From Terriglobia bacterium (GTDB lineage Bacteria; Acidobacteriota; Terriglobia; Acidiferrales; UBA7541), in the NCBI GenBank assembly GCA_020073585.1, contig JAIQEV010000019.1, positions 1 to 64,000 on the forward strand: a DNA stretch of 64,000 nucleotides. The letters run 5' to 3'. Of the stretch, positions 26,145 through 29,768 are shown piece by piece. Position 1 is the stretch's first letter, and each line of letters starts with the position of its first letter. The translations under genes were made by a program, and so were the position numbers. The notes under the pieces were generated by a model, which was given only the letters and a program-made list of their open reading frames with translations, searched no databases and was not told where the DNA came from.

Positions 26145-26324
26145 ATGCCTTTCGGAAGGAAACTATTTGTGCTCGCGCTCTTGCTCGCATTGGCCGCAAC
26201 ACTCGCGCTTCCCATTGCCTTACAACCACTTGCAACCTATGAGCAGCCGGTTCTACAAAGCGATGGCGGCCTTCCGCCCCCGCCGTCACCCTGGGCGCTT
26301 CCGTCATCCACACAAGCCTCGTAG
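26145..26324 (+). CDS. Small secreted/membrane peptide (59 aa)
   Basis: An ATG with a textbook GGAGG site four bases upstream opens a 59-codon gene. The product has a basic start (MPFGRK), a hydrophobic segment (~7-25, Leu/Ala-rich) and a short Pro/Ser-rich tail ('GGLPPPPSPWALPSS'). It looks like an exported peptide or a single-pass membrane peptide. A strong stem-loop (26348-26376) follows, then a 7-TM gene. No family is known to me; its position first in the cassette suggests a signalling or partner role, which is inference. Confidence 0.68.
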   Translation: MPFGRKLFVLALLLALAATLALPIALQPLATYEQPVLQSDGGLPPPPSPWALPSSTQAS

Positions 26325-26347
26325 CACACGAGGGTTGCAAACCGACC

Positions 26348-26376
26348 GGAGGGAAGGTTTCTTGGACCTTCCCTCC
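26348..26376 (+). terminator. 10-bp perfect stem-loop after the 59-aa gene
   Basis: GGAGGGAAGG pairs fully with CCTTCCCTCC around a nine-base loop. There is no T tract after it, so it may attenuate or stabilise RNA between the peptide gene and the membrane-protein genes rather than terminate outright. Confidence 0.5.
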
Positions 26377-26408
26377 CGCGTCCATGTTAGAATTTCTGGC
26401 TGATAATC

Positions 26409-27170
26409 ATGGTCAGCCAGTTAATTCTCTGGACCTGTAACTCTCTCGAAGCCATTCTGCTCCTGCGAGCGGTTCGCGGAAGATTCTTCGCGAAGTACTC
26501 CCTTTTCTACGCGTATCTCCTCTGGGTATTGCTGCGATCGCTCGCTGGGTTTTACATCATGCTCAGGCATCCGGGGCTGTACCCCACTTTTTATTGGGAT
26601 ACACAATTCTTCGATGGATTGCTGGGTTGCGGGATAATTTTCGAGCTTTACAGGCAGGGTCTCGTCCACTACCCAGGCGCCGCGCGCATGACACGCAATG
26701 TTCTGGCTTTTATTTTTGCCATGGTCATCTCGAAAGTCCTGGCCAATGTGATGTCGGGCCCGGTCCGGTCACCCGCACCAATAGCCTATGACTTGGAACG
26801 ATCTCTCCGGATGGTGCAGTCCATATTTCTAATCGCGCTATTGGCCCTGTTTTACTACTACGTGATTCCACTGGGCAAGAATCTTCGGGGCATGATGCTG
26901 GGCTACGGTTTCTTCCTGGGCACCAGCGTCGTCAATCTGACGTTTCGCACGCAGTTGGGCTCCGGTTTCCACATGTGGTGGGCCTATATTCAGCCGCTTT
27001 CCTACGTTCTCGTTTTGGCCATCTGGTGCCCCGCCTTATGGTCGTATGAGCCGATGCCCTTGCCCGATCCCAAATCGAAGCTCGAATACGATTATCAAGT
27101 GCTTTCACTCGAAACGAAAAAGCACCTGGTCCAAATCCGCAGTTATCTCTCGAAGGCGGCGCTTCCATGA
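26409..27170 (+). CDS. Acidobacterial-type 7-TM hypothetical membrane protein
   Basis: 253 residues with about seven hydrophobic segments and a cytoplasmic-looking tail. Recognisable features are 'LLLRAVRGRFFAKYSLFYAYL', 'PTFYWDTQFF', 'CGIIFELYRQGL' and a C-terminal 'LPDPKSKLEYDYQVLS' helix. I know this pattern as a recurrent uncharacterised family in Acidobacteriota. No catalytic motif is evident. The ATG has no clear ribosome site. It overlaps the next gene by 4 bp, so the two are translationally coupled. Confidence 0.82.
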   Translation: MVSQLILWTCNSLEAILLLRAVRGRFFAKYSLFYAYLLWVLLRSLAGFYIMLRHPGLYPTFYWDTQFFDGLLGCGIIFELYRQGLVHYPGAARMTRNVLAFIFAMVISKVLANVMSGPVRSPAPIAYDLERSLRMVQSIFLIALLALFYYYVIPLGKNLRGMMLGYGFFLGTSVVNLTFRTQLGSGFHMWWAYIQPLSYVLVLAIWCPALWSYEPMPLPDPKSKLEYDYQVLSLETKKHLVQIRSYLSKAALP

Positions 27171-27730
27171 ATTGGCCCGCCATTCTCGTCATTTTTTTCG
27201 GCTTCCTGTCCATCGTATGGATTGGTGCTTCGCTGCTGCGCGGGGGGACCCACTCGGGGAGCACGCGGAACCGGCCGGAAGAACAGACGGCAGTATCCGC
27301 CTTGCGCGCCGAACCGTGCCCCCCTGATGTGGTTGCGCGGGTCTTCGAACGGGGAGACTCGGACTTTATCTCGGGGCAGCACTCTCCTGAGGCTGAGCAG
27401 TTGTTTCGCCGCGAACGGAAGAGACTCGCCTATCTGTGGCTGCGCCACACCCGCCACCAACTCGCCAGCGTCAGACGATTTCATGCCGGGATGGCCCGCA
27501 AAAGCGCGAACCTCAACCCTGCAGTGGAAATCAGGATTGTTTTCGATTGCGCGCTCGTTTCCGGAATGTGCTGGCTGCTGGCCGCCGCCATCTATTTCTT
27601 CGGTCCCGTTCACGCGCGGGGGATGGCTCGCTATACGAGCGAATTGTCCGTGCGACTATGGAGCTTGGCCGGGAAATCCGCGGAGATTCCGCAATCGCCG
27701 CCGGCAGATTTCGCGCGGAGCGGCGGCTAA
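27167..27730 (+). CDS. Hypothetical membrane protein (187 aa)
   Basis: An N-terminal hydrophobic helix (residues ~5-24, 'ILVIFFGFLSIVWIGASLL'), a soluble basic middle part ('EAEQLFRRERKRLAYLWLRHTRHQLASVRRF'), and a second hydrophobic helix (~128-148). It overlaps the 7-TM gene by 4 bp and the next gene starts right after its stop codon, so it belongs to a tight operon. Function unknown. Confidence 0.75.
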   Translation: MNWPAILVIFFGFLSIVWIGASLLRGGTHSGSTRNRPEEQTAVSALRAEPCPPDVVARVFERGDSDFISGQHSPEAEQLFRRERKRLAYLWLRHTRHQLASVRRFHAGMARKSANLNPAVEIRIVFDCALVSGMCWLLAAAIYFFGPVHARGMARYTSELSVRLWSLAGKSAEIPQSPPADFARSGG

Positions 27731-28189
27731 ATGGAAACCAGGATCACACCAATGGCGGTGGAAACCGCGCGCGAGGATCTGCAGAACCGTACTCTGGCAA
27801 AACTCAAGGGGAATTTTGCCCGGCTGATCTATCTCGCCTCGACCCGCGATTACACCACGGGGCGCTATCAGCATGACGGACTGGCGAATGAATTCTCGCC
27901 AGACGCCGCCGCCGCGGCCCTGACGGCCTGCCACCAGGAAATCTTCCAGAGCCTGGCGACGAGTTCCCTCGAGGACTTAGTGGAAGACCTGGAAGTCTAT
28001 GCCCGCTGCAATCAGATAGAAATGAGCGAACTCATCGGCACTTGGGAGAAGCTCCAGCCCTACCGGATCACGCCGCCCATGAATTGCGGTCCCCTGACGG
28101 CGGAGCTCTTTACGTCGAATGTCACTGTCGCCTTGGCAATCTTGCGTTCCCGCCTTCTTCCCCGTGAACGGCATCCACAAGACGCATAG
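27731..28189 (+). CDS. Hypothetical soluble protein (152 aa)
   Basis: Starts directly after the stop codon of the previous gene. A helical soluble protein without membrane segments: 'LAKLKGNFARLIYLASTRDYTTGRYQHDGLA' is the most distinctive part. Its last 68 bp overlap the 3' end of the convergent XRE regulator gene. No function assignable; last gene of the plus-strand cassette. Confidence 0.75.
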   Translation: METRITPMAVETAREDLQNRTLAKLKGNFARLIYLASTRDYTTGRYQHDGLANEFSPDAAAAALTACHQEIFQSLATSSLEDLVEDLEVYARCNQIEMSELIGTWEKLQPYRITPPMNCGPLTAELFTSNVTVALAILRSRLLPRERHPQDA

Positions 28190-28940
28190 CCACCCCGGTT
28201 ACCTGTCCCACGATCTCCGCTTCGGTCCCATACGCGTATTTTTTCACGCTGCAAGGCGATAGCGGGTGAGGGAGCACCAGGAGTTCGTTGCGATTCAGTT
28301 CGCACCAGCCGCACGCATAGCCGTCGCGAAGTTCGACAAAATAGATCGGCCGGTCATATTCCGTCCGCCATTTGCCCGGCTGGATTTTTCTGACTCCCTC
28401 GTCAATCTGAACGAACGAGCCGGGGCGCAGCAGCGGATGGAGGGTAAAATCCTGCAGGCCGATGTACCCGTAGTGCTGGTGCCGCAAGTCCAGGTGCTGG
28501 ATCAGGGAGATCGGAATCTCTCCCCACACCTCCACCATTCGGGACAGCAGGTTTGTGGTGCTGACGCTGAATCCCGGGTCGAAGCGGACGGGAAAAGTTA
28601 CGGTTCGTTCCGGGTCGTGGATTTCAATCGTCGCGCGGGAAGTGTCCCGCGGCGGCATCGCCAGGCGATGTTTCTCGATCTTTTCCAGGTCAATCCCGAA
28701 GAGCAAAAGCAGGTCGGTGAACTTGATCCTGTAAATCACGCTGAGACTGAATAGCTTGAAGATGCTGGGTATGGAGTCGGTGTTTTCGAGCTGGGTGAGC
28801 CACGCATTCGAAATATAATACTCCGGATTGCCCTCGGCCTCGGCGATCTTTTGGCTTTGATCGGCGACTTCGCGCGTGGTGATTCCGATCCGCGAACGTA
28901 ATTCCCGTAGCCGGCCCGCAACGCTCAAGCGAATTCCCAT
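28122..28940 (-). CDS. XRE-family regulator with degenerate S24/LexA-like domain
   Basis: 272 residues. The N-terminal ~80 residues are an XRE helix-turn-helix ('RLRELRSRIGITTREVADQSQ', 'ISNAWLTQLENTDSIPSIFKLFSLS'). The C-terminal ~110 residues follow the S24 peptidase layout: 'HPLLRPGSFVQID', 'RPIYFVELRDGYACGWCEL', 'EAEIVGQVTGVAMRLV'. The position of the catalytic Ser in the 'GDSM' motif holds Phe, so self-cleavage is unlikely. It is convergent with, and overlaps, the membrane-protein cassette and may regulate it. A -10 TATGAT ends six bases from the ATG, which suggests a leaderless mRNA. Confidence 0.82.
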   Translation of the reverse strand: MGIRLSVAGRLRELRSRIGITTREVADQSQKIAEAEGNPEYYISNAWLTQLENTDSIPSIFKLFSLSVIYRIKFTDLLLLFGIDLEKIEKHRLAMPPRDTSRATIEIHDPERTVTFPVRFDPGFSVSTTNLLSRMVEVWGEIPISLIQHLDLRHQHYGYIGLQDFTLHPLLRPGSFVQIDEGVRKIQPGKWRTEYDRPIYFVELRDGYACGWCELNRNELLVLPHPLSPCSVKKYAYGTEAEIVGQVTGVAMRLVDAVHGEEGGNARLPRRQ

Positions 28941-29109: not shown

Positions 29110-29349
29110 TCAATCGGACAGCACGCGCTTTTTTCTTAGCGCAACAAACGTTTCAGCAAGAATGAGGAGCAGTGCCCCGGGAATCCGGCAGCGCTGGGAC
29201 GGGTCCCGAACGTTGTCCAGAGTGACGCTATCGTCGTCAGGAAGGCTGCGTATGGTGAACATCGGATCGTTACCGAGATAAATGGTCGCGGTGGAACTCT
29301 TGGCTGGAGCTTCCCTGTCTCTTGGTTCCGTAGAGTGACTACTTGACAT
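29110..29349 (-). CDS. Small hypothetical protein (79 aa)
   Basis: The ATG at 29349 follows GAGGAGGAGGA, a good ribosome site. The product begins MSSSHSTEPRD and has 'ATIYLGNDPMFTIRSLPDDDSVTLDNV' in the middle and a hydrophobic C-terminal helix ('ALLLILAETFVALRKKR'). A longer frame starting at 29463 has no such site. No family recognised. Confidence 0.55.
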   Translation of the reverse strand: MSSSHSTEPRDREAPAKSSTATIYLGNDPMFTIRSLPDDDSVTLDNVRDPSQRCRIPGALLLILAETFVALRKKRVLSD

Positions 29350-29768
29350 GCAACGATGTCCTCCTCCTCGGGTAAGAACAGAACGCGATTGAATGGAACT
29401 CTTCGGACAGGTCTCTTCCGGGCGTTGTCCGACGGCCATGCCCCGCGTATGGTTATTTTCCACGCAATTTTGGCAGGTCCGCGTTTTTTAGCATTCCGCT
29501 TGCAATTGCAACCAGGAACGCCCAGAAGAACCCCGCGGACTTGCTTCGACGGGCGTGTCAGCGACTTTGCGACCAGCGGCCAGGGAATTTAGTGAGCTTT
29601 TGCATCCGCGTTGGACGGTTTGTTGATCCAGACCTCGGTTGCGACCGCTGCTGGCTGGGGTCCTGGCGGACCAAGCGCTCAGGGTGAACGCGATAGGCGG
29701 CAGCGAGAACGGCCAGGAGACCACTTCCTTCGGGCAAGAGCCCGGCGCTTCCAATGGCGCGGGAATCG
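29350..29768. other. ~420-bp intergenic region
   Basis: No gene supported. One feature stands out: a perfect 12-bp palindrome TTGCAATTGCAA at 29500-29511, about 150 bp upstream of the 79-aa gene start. Frames across the right half are shadows of the neighbouring dehydrogenase gene. Confidence 0.55.

Follow-up and report, generated by a model that had tools for sequence, protein, structure and literature searches.

A 64,000-nucleotide stretch of DNA from a Terriglobia bacterium (assembly GCA_020073585.1, contig JAIQEV010000019.1; the whole stretch is hereafter called the window) carries five adjacent genes encoding a small peptide precursor, a stand-alone seven-helix membrane protein (TM7), a second membrane protein (MP), a soluble all-helical protein (SOL) and, convergent to these, an XRE regulator. 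Comparison with related loci suggests, with a probability of about 55%, that they form an autoregulated secreted-peptide module acting through TM7. We infer signalling from the linkage of the genes across genera, a multi-copy peptide under selection, co-variation of the peptide with TM7 and a probable operator. An earlier note on this DNA had likened the arrangement to a peptide-signalling or a membrane-stress module; the comparative evidence speaks for peptide signalling, and the membrane-stress alternative gained no support.

The precursor gene was traced across loci (designated by L numbers) with a fixed rule. A precursor was called where an open reading frame (ORF) of 25–140 residues had a ribosome site, a hydrophobic N-terminus with Lys or Arg and a tail with four prolines per ten residues, and ended within 450 bp of TM7. 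After exclusion of seven of 72 TM7 loci with less than 300 bp of upstream sequence, 65 unique usable loci remained, and 49 of them carry a precursor upstream of TM7. The same rule returned none in 1300 shuffled regions and two in 2156 other windows of the same loci. The rule was framed after the first precursors had been viewed; it succeeded at 32 of the 38 loci already seen and at 17 of the 27 unseen. Seven more precursors were recognized by eye (L075, L085, L140, L149, L163, L174 and L193), giving the 56 studied here, and short leaderless proline-rich ORFs stand in place of a precursor at L088, L089, L098 and L190. A set of 40 further loci, from which eight duplicates of earlier ones were removed (L278, L280, L282, L285, L286, L288, L289 and L294), links the peptide to the whole module: a precursor is present at 14/16 loci with SOL and XRE beside TM7 vs 4/16 without both, the latter including three with XRE and no SOL (L295, L301 and L308; Fisher P ∼0.001, loci taken as independent). 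With duplicates kept and sufficient upstream sequence required, the rule result on the 40 loci was 11/18 and 11/20.

The gene also appears to evolve as a coding sequence. The ribosome site and export-type N-terminus described in the earlier note belong to an ORF that is present, with its frame conserved in the nearest relative (L061), though export is predicted from sequence. The two peptides are identical at 45/58 residues, with nonsynonymous and synonymous divergences (dN and dS) of 0.139 and 0.477, similar to those of TM7 from the same two loci (0.113 and 0.420). In 11 of 11 precursor pairs, which were hand-picked, dN is below dS. If the peptide gene were a small ORF standing by chance next to a conserved operon of four genes, its lack of a convincing family match in Pfam and NCBIfam would be accounted for, but this reading is contradicted by the 49/65 frequency set against the two controls, by dN < dS and by the synonymous divergence between core copies described below, and can be given almost no weight. 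One family hit was rejected: the L086 precursor scores as TIGR04294 (H-X9-DG-CTERM; NCBIfam 22.3 bits, cut-off 19), which was put down to a fortuitous likeness to the DG motif, the best stretch covering eight residues.

Many precursors contain their proline-rich core more than once. A repeat-word test was passed by 25 of the 56 precursors, L148 passing merely as a proline run, and tandem cores, in two to six copies, occur in 24/56. Identity of the repeated words at the protein level follows from how they were chosen; the finding lies in their codons, which differ synonymously at 11 and 4 of 12 positions in L069, 5–7 of 9 in L143 and 4–6 of 8 in L164. Such differences, which are frequent, suggest that selection maintains each tandem copy. 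The copies in L075 (0 of 9 codons differ) and L147 (0, 0 and 1 of 12) appear to have been duplicated recently. The core sequence differs among loci, with a DG...P.PP pattern common to many, and separate modules of one genome bear different cores. The window's own genome, assembled in 113 contigs, has a second module on contig 34 (L096), comprising XRE, SOL, TM7, a peptide gene with two core copies and a weak match to MP. In remote modules (L249, L252, L254–L257, L299, L302, L303, L309, L310 and L312–L314) the short exported peptide has at least two cysteines, and a two-cysteine core, often CxPC-like, replaces the DG...PPP core. At L259 the precursor contains five tandem AANMPVFPTPPAVKT-like units ahead of duplicated TM7-like genes, in a stretch without a SOL or XRE match.

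The tandem copies bear on whether the peptide is released at all. The precursor might instead be a tethered regulator, held by an uncleaved N-terminal anchor, with a periplasmic proline-rich tail that acts on that cell's own TM7, for instance to sense the envelope. Its N-terminal segment could serve as such an anchor, and small membrane proteins can regulate larger ones. Two to six near-identical tandem cores that differ by synonymous changes better fit peptides that are released separately, and tethering is considered quite improbable.

The mature part of the precursor tracks TM7 more closely than the other partners. Across 51 of the 56 loci (five were dropped for a missing partner gene or a precursor of ≤40 residues), its partial rank correlation with TM7, given the other partners, is 0.384, and none of 300 permutations was as high. 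The corresponding values are 0.059 for MP (65/300 permutations), −0.161 for SOL and −0.173 for XRE; the signal part has a partial correlation with TM7 of 0.024. The outcome was similar when MP was omitted and 55 of the 56 loci were used, with one dropped on the same grounds. MP shares the operon of TM7, so linkage alone is not a ready explanation of the tracking. Separately, the signal part correlates with MP (partial 0.169, 0/300 permutations), unlike the mature part, and MP might bear on peptide export or processing.

The same co-variation would also fit a toxin and its immunity protein. In this chief rival explanation, the exported peptide is a bacteriocin that inhibits related cells, TM7 (with MP) confers immunity, and XRE and SOL regulate production; the small exported peptide beside a polytopic membrane protein speaks for it. 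By eye, many of the cores open with an acidic DG and abound in proline, and they lack the cationic or amphipathic make-up usual for membrane-active peptides. Neither a transporter nor a modifying enzyme, the latter a feature of RiPP clusters, is found among the module genes, where no Pfam enzyme match was obtained; the flanks had no systematic search. MP, SOL and XRE accompany TM7 and would be superfluous for immunity alone. A bacteriocin is regarded as rather unlikely.

The TM7 family has the features of a seven-helix membrane protein. Because hydropathy profiles show seven peaks and loop charges follow the positive-inside pattern (mean Lys plus Arg of 2.35, 3.51, 2.11 and 6.92 in the inside loops, the last being the long tail, and 0.03, 1.05, 0.57 and 1.46 outside), an N-out/C-in topology is predicted. 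The AlphaFold2 model is a seven-helix bundle with a C-terminal helix (predicted local distance difference test score 82.8). G-protein-coupled receptors (GPCRs) head the fold comparison (top Z 13.0, root mean square deviation 4.6, 211 residues aligned), with scores attainable by helical bundles in general; the modelled likeness is taken as no more than such bundles give, and homology is not claimed. In Foldseek, where GPCRs again came first, the best E value was 0.08, and no sequence match was found in the PDB. The window protein has no Pfam match, and no kinase appears among the matches of 37 TM7 members. PF16927 (HisKA_7TM) is unmatched in the same 37 at E values up to 0.5, and alignment of TM7 with 11 acidobacterial HisKA_7TM domains by hhalign gave a probability of 0.3%. 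Kinship between TM7 and MP was considered and discarded, since a profile comparison showed no relation. For SOL, the best Z of the model against solved folds was 4.6, PDB sequence matches were weak and unrelated, and the window protein has no tetratricopeptide repeat (TPR) match in Pfam.

The XRE protein combines a DNA-binding domain with an S24-like C-terminal half. HTH_31 was detected in 31/36 members at E values up to 0.5 (best 9.1e-6); the window protein alone matched weakly (0.003, below the cut-off). Sequence search of the PDB returned matches of the helix-turn-helix (HTH) type only, and no TPR match was found by Pfam in the 36 members. Against 20 S24 domains that relatives encode, hhalign aligned the C-terminal half with a probability of 81% and an E value of 1.2e-5 in a single comparison. 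The column of the catalytic Ser is occupied by Thr in 30 of the 36 members, Arg in four, Met in one and Ser in one, and that of the Lys by Trp in all 36. Because the Ser-Lys pair is missing, XRE is probably a non-cleaving S24-like regulator.

The gap between the peptide gene and TM7 contains a hairpin that in the window reaches a z of −2.9 against dinucleotide shuffles; z is below −2 in 41/55 gaps (mean −2.85), one of the 56 loci being dropped for too long a gap. A TGnTAnn[AT]T element is found no more than 70 nt from where TM7 starts at 44/56 loci, compared with 3.7% of shuffles. The hairpin and this −10-like element together suggest that peptide and TM7 are placed on separate transcripts.

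Of 54 loci (two of the 56 were dropped), 25 have a perfect 6-4-6 palindrome in the 220 nt that precede the peptide gene, where 2.7 would be expected; 22 of these lie 80–140 nt ahead of the gene's start, with about ten contributed by close relatives. The palindrome is a probable XRE operator. Its arms, by inspection, partly follow the XRE recognition helix: GGTTGG is paired with ISNAWLTQIE, GTTCCG with HISRLADIE and GTTCAG with ISAARLAQIE, although ISNAWLT-type helices are also paired with the arms GGTCGG, GCTCGG and GCTTCG. Exact GGTTGGN4CCAACC sites number 12 in 12 genomes, of which eight are at examined peptide genes and a ninth (G012 C38) is followed ∼430 bp further on by a TM7 fragment; eight hits came from the reversed control pattern. 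Exact GTTCCG sites number 13 in 12 genomes, three at examined peptide genes and two inside paralogue modules, with five control hits. When two mismatches were allowed in six genomes, 110 forward hits vs 59 control hits were obtained, which leaves room for possible further XRE targets. In one locus group the distance to a TAGGCT element, measured by eye, weakly suggests an activator position. An operator at the peptide gene would make the peptide the main visible output of the module, a point in favour of the bacteriocin explanation. A one-mismatch operator-like sequence, TGCTTGGTTTCCCAACCA, is found in L237 (position 1037), L088 (406) and L239 (3176), either at or shortly before small genes that resemble one another; these genes contain KRKPYARPSF and are PAS-like by eye.

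The gene order is conserved. All ORFs of the five-gene cassette that the earlier note had outlined, with TM7, MP and SOL coupled or abutting and XRE convergent, are present, with 4 bp shared by TM7 and MP, SOL directly adjoining MP and an antisense overlap of 68 bp between XRE and SOL. The order TM7>MP>SOL> <XRE recurs in close relatives among other acidobacterial genomes; at other loci the TM7 and MP genes have a different orientation with respect to SOL and XRE. The peptide gene is found at most orthologous loci and XRE is syntenic with the membrane genes, both points on which the earlier proposal depended. Among 37 SOL-bearing loci of L061–L100, SOL and XRE overlap tail to tail by 50–128 bp in 36, the length always being 2 mod 3; the exception, L090, has a 34-bp gap with the phase unchanged. 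The XRE gene of L064 contains an in-frame TAG.

The family does recur in Acidobacteriota, as had been claimed for the seven-helix protein. TM7 matches are present in 35 of 61 genomes and XRE matches in 43, the window's own genome included. About a dozen candidates were scored per genome in two wider searches, which therefore give lower bounds: a SOL match in at least 10 of 297 genomes sampled from the phylum, and a TM7 profile match in at least 131 of 200 genomes of the class, many remote members being without SOL. An XRE alignment search of the contig database returned 370 relatives, the best 80 of which are all titled Acidobacteriota or subgroups, and a single-protein TM7 query of that database found no relative. 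At nine loci (L099, L100, L177, L182, L185, L186, L189, L194 and L197) an XRE relative stands in divergent orientation beside a long gene with a match to the XRE profile, which has two XRE-like halves in several cases and frames of up to ∼640 residues; no SOL or TM7 match is present in these stretches.

Table 1. Features of the peptide module in the window.
Feature	Position	Strand	Remarks
Peptide precursor gene	26145..26324	+	59 aa; ATG preceded by CTCGGAGGAAAC; core LQSDGGLPPPPSPW, one copy; N-terminal export-type segment
Hairpin in the peptide–TM7 gap	26348..26376	+	GC-rich, terminator-like stem; without a T-run here
Extended −10-like element TGTTAGAAT	26385..26393	+	Probable separate promoter for the TM7-MP-SOL operon
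TM7, stand-alone seven-helix membrane protein	26409..27170	+	253 aa; predicted N-out/C-in; candidate peptide receptor
MP, membrane protein	27167..27730	+	187 aa; member of no known family; two peaks of hydrophobicity, around residues 15 and 133
SOL, soluble all-helical protein	27731..28189	+	152 aa; no clear solved-fold match
XRE regulator	28122..28940	−	272 aa; N-terminal HTH; C-terminal half aligning to S24 (LexA/CI), without the catalytic Ser-Lys pair

Downstream of the module, positions 29110–29463 of the minus strand hold a 117-residue ORF that is 72% identical in L061 and has no Pfam match.

The secreted-peptide reading can be drawn as a circuit. The small gene would yield a precursor exported by its N-terminal signal, and a protease would cut it into short proline-rich cores, one in the window and up to six elsewhere. 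The core would be recognized by TM7, as linkage and co-variation suggest, and the state of TM7 would be passed through MP and SOL, in whichever order, to XRE. XRE may bind the conserved palindrome upstream of the peptide gene and control that gene, closing a feedback loop. Because the S24 catalytic pair is lacking, XRE would be switched by partner binding and not by self-cleavage. Different cores would hold the circuits of one genome apart, and sensing of neighbouring cells or of self through the peptide would be the most likely use.

Several observations weigh against this circuit. The co-variation statistic is uncorrected for shared ancestry, and toxin-immunity pairs would be expected to co-vary too. 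Six usable TM7 loci have no precursor even by eye (L097, L134, L136, L141, L146 and L199). XRE and SOL occur without TM7 at 11 fetched loci (L124, L172, L178–L181, L183, L184, L187, L192 and L198), some of which are contig ends, and no peptide of the module type was found near them. TM7 also exists without SOL, in remote members that mostly lack the peptide, and some XRE genes (L099, L100, L177 and others) adjoin a double-XRE gene instead of the module. The window peptide itself has no clear operator: the best candidate in the usual interval has two mismatches in six, and the sole perfect palindrome, at −189, has unlike arms. Exact GGTTGG operators away from peptide genes number three vs eight control hits and are not in excess, which lends no support to a signal controlling many genes. 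The exporter, the protease and the downstream regulon were not identified.

The earlier statement that no known module matches has stood. None of the window module proteins, the peptide included, reached Pfam or NCBIfam cut-offs, and the module qualifies as a member of no known peptide system. PADLOC and PHROGs gave no convincing match for the module proteins, the correct-frame peptide lying outside that search, and no acidobacterial peptide/7-TM module appeared among the papers listed from an open-access library. Judged by sequence, the module appears new as a system, with the HTH and the S24-like half alone falling in known families; its logic, an exported peptide, a membrane partner and feedback on the peptide gene, is familiar.

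Peptide signalling through membrane receptors is known chiefly in Gram-positive bacteria, where kinases mediate it, and the known peptide receptors besides these are cytoplasmic TPR proteins. Membrane receptors of the AgrC/ComD type are histidine kinases. TM7 resembles them in crossing the membrane several times and in having the gene of a secreted peptide beside its own, but differs from AgrC/HPK10 in having 253 residues and no kinase match. It shares seven helices with the bacterial HisKA_7TM sensor (PF16927), without the kinase or a relation to that profile. The XRE regulator has the HTH_3/HTH_31-type DNA-binding domain of its class and is built like the S24 repressors LexA and CI, unlike which it has the substituted Ser and Lys columns described above. 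The RRNPPA systems of Firmicutes (Rap-Phr, PlcR, NprR and AimR) have exported propeptides, encoded next to the receptor gene and with up to six mature copies, and a cytoplasmic TPR receptor (PMC9765709). The present module is similar in placing a putatively exported propeptide, sometimes multi-copy, beside a candidate receptor gene, and differs in that this candidate spans the membrane with seven helices and the XRE C-terminus aligns with S24.

A further parallel in layout comes from fungal pheromones. Fungal α-factor is exported from a tandem-copy precursor and paired with Ste2, a seven-helix receptor with an N-out/C-in topology. The module likewise has tandem short peptides and a seven-helix partner with that topology, which TM7, by prediction only, has in common with the GPCR superfamily; unlike the fungal pair it has no G protein, its partners being MP, SOL and XRE. 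A bacterial counterpart of the pheromone-receptor pair, in which tandem-copy peptides act on a receptor of GPCR topology that works through MP and SOL on a non-cleaving S24-like XRE, with parallel channels of different core sequence within one genome, is tentatively put forward as a possibility that falls short of even odds.

If the secreted-peptide reading is true, this widespread module, whose candidate receptor is a stand-alone seven-helix protein, would represent a new kind of bacterial peptide system. The cores are short and defined, which makes them open to immediate synthesis and testing. Some genomes assembled in one to four contigs contain full modules with a peptide (L309, L310, L312 and L313), and tractable strains may therefore exist.

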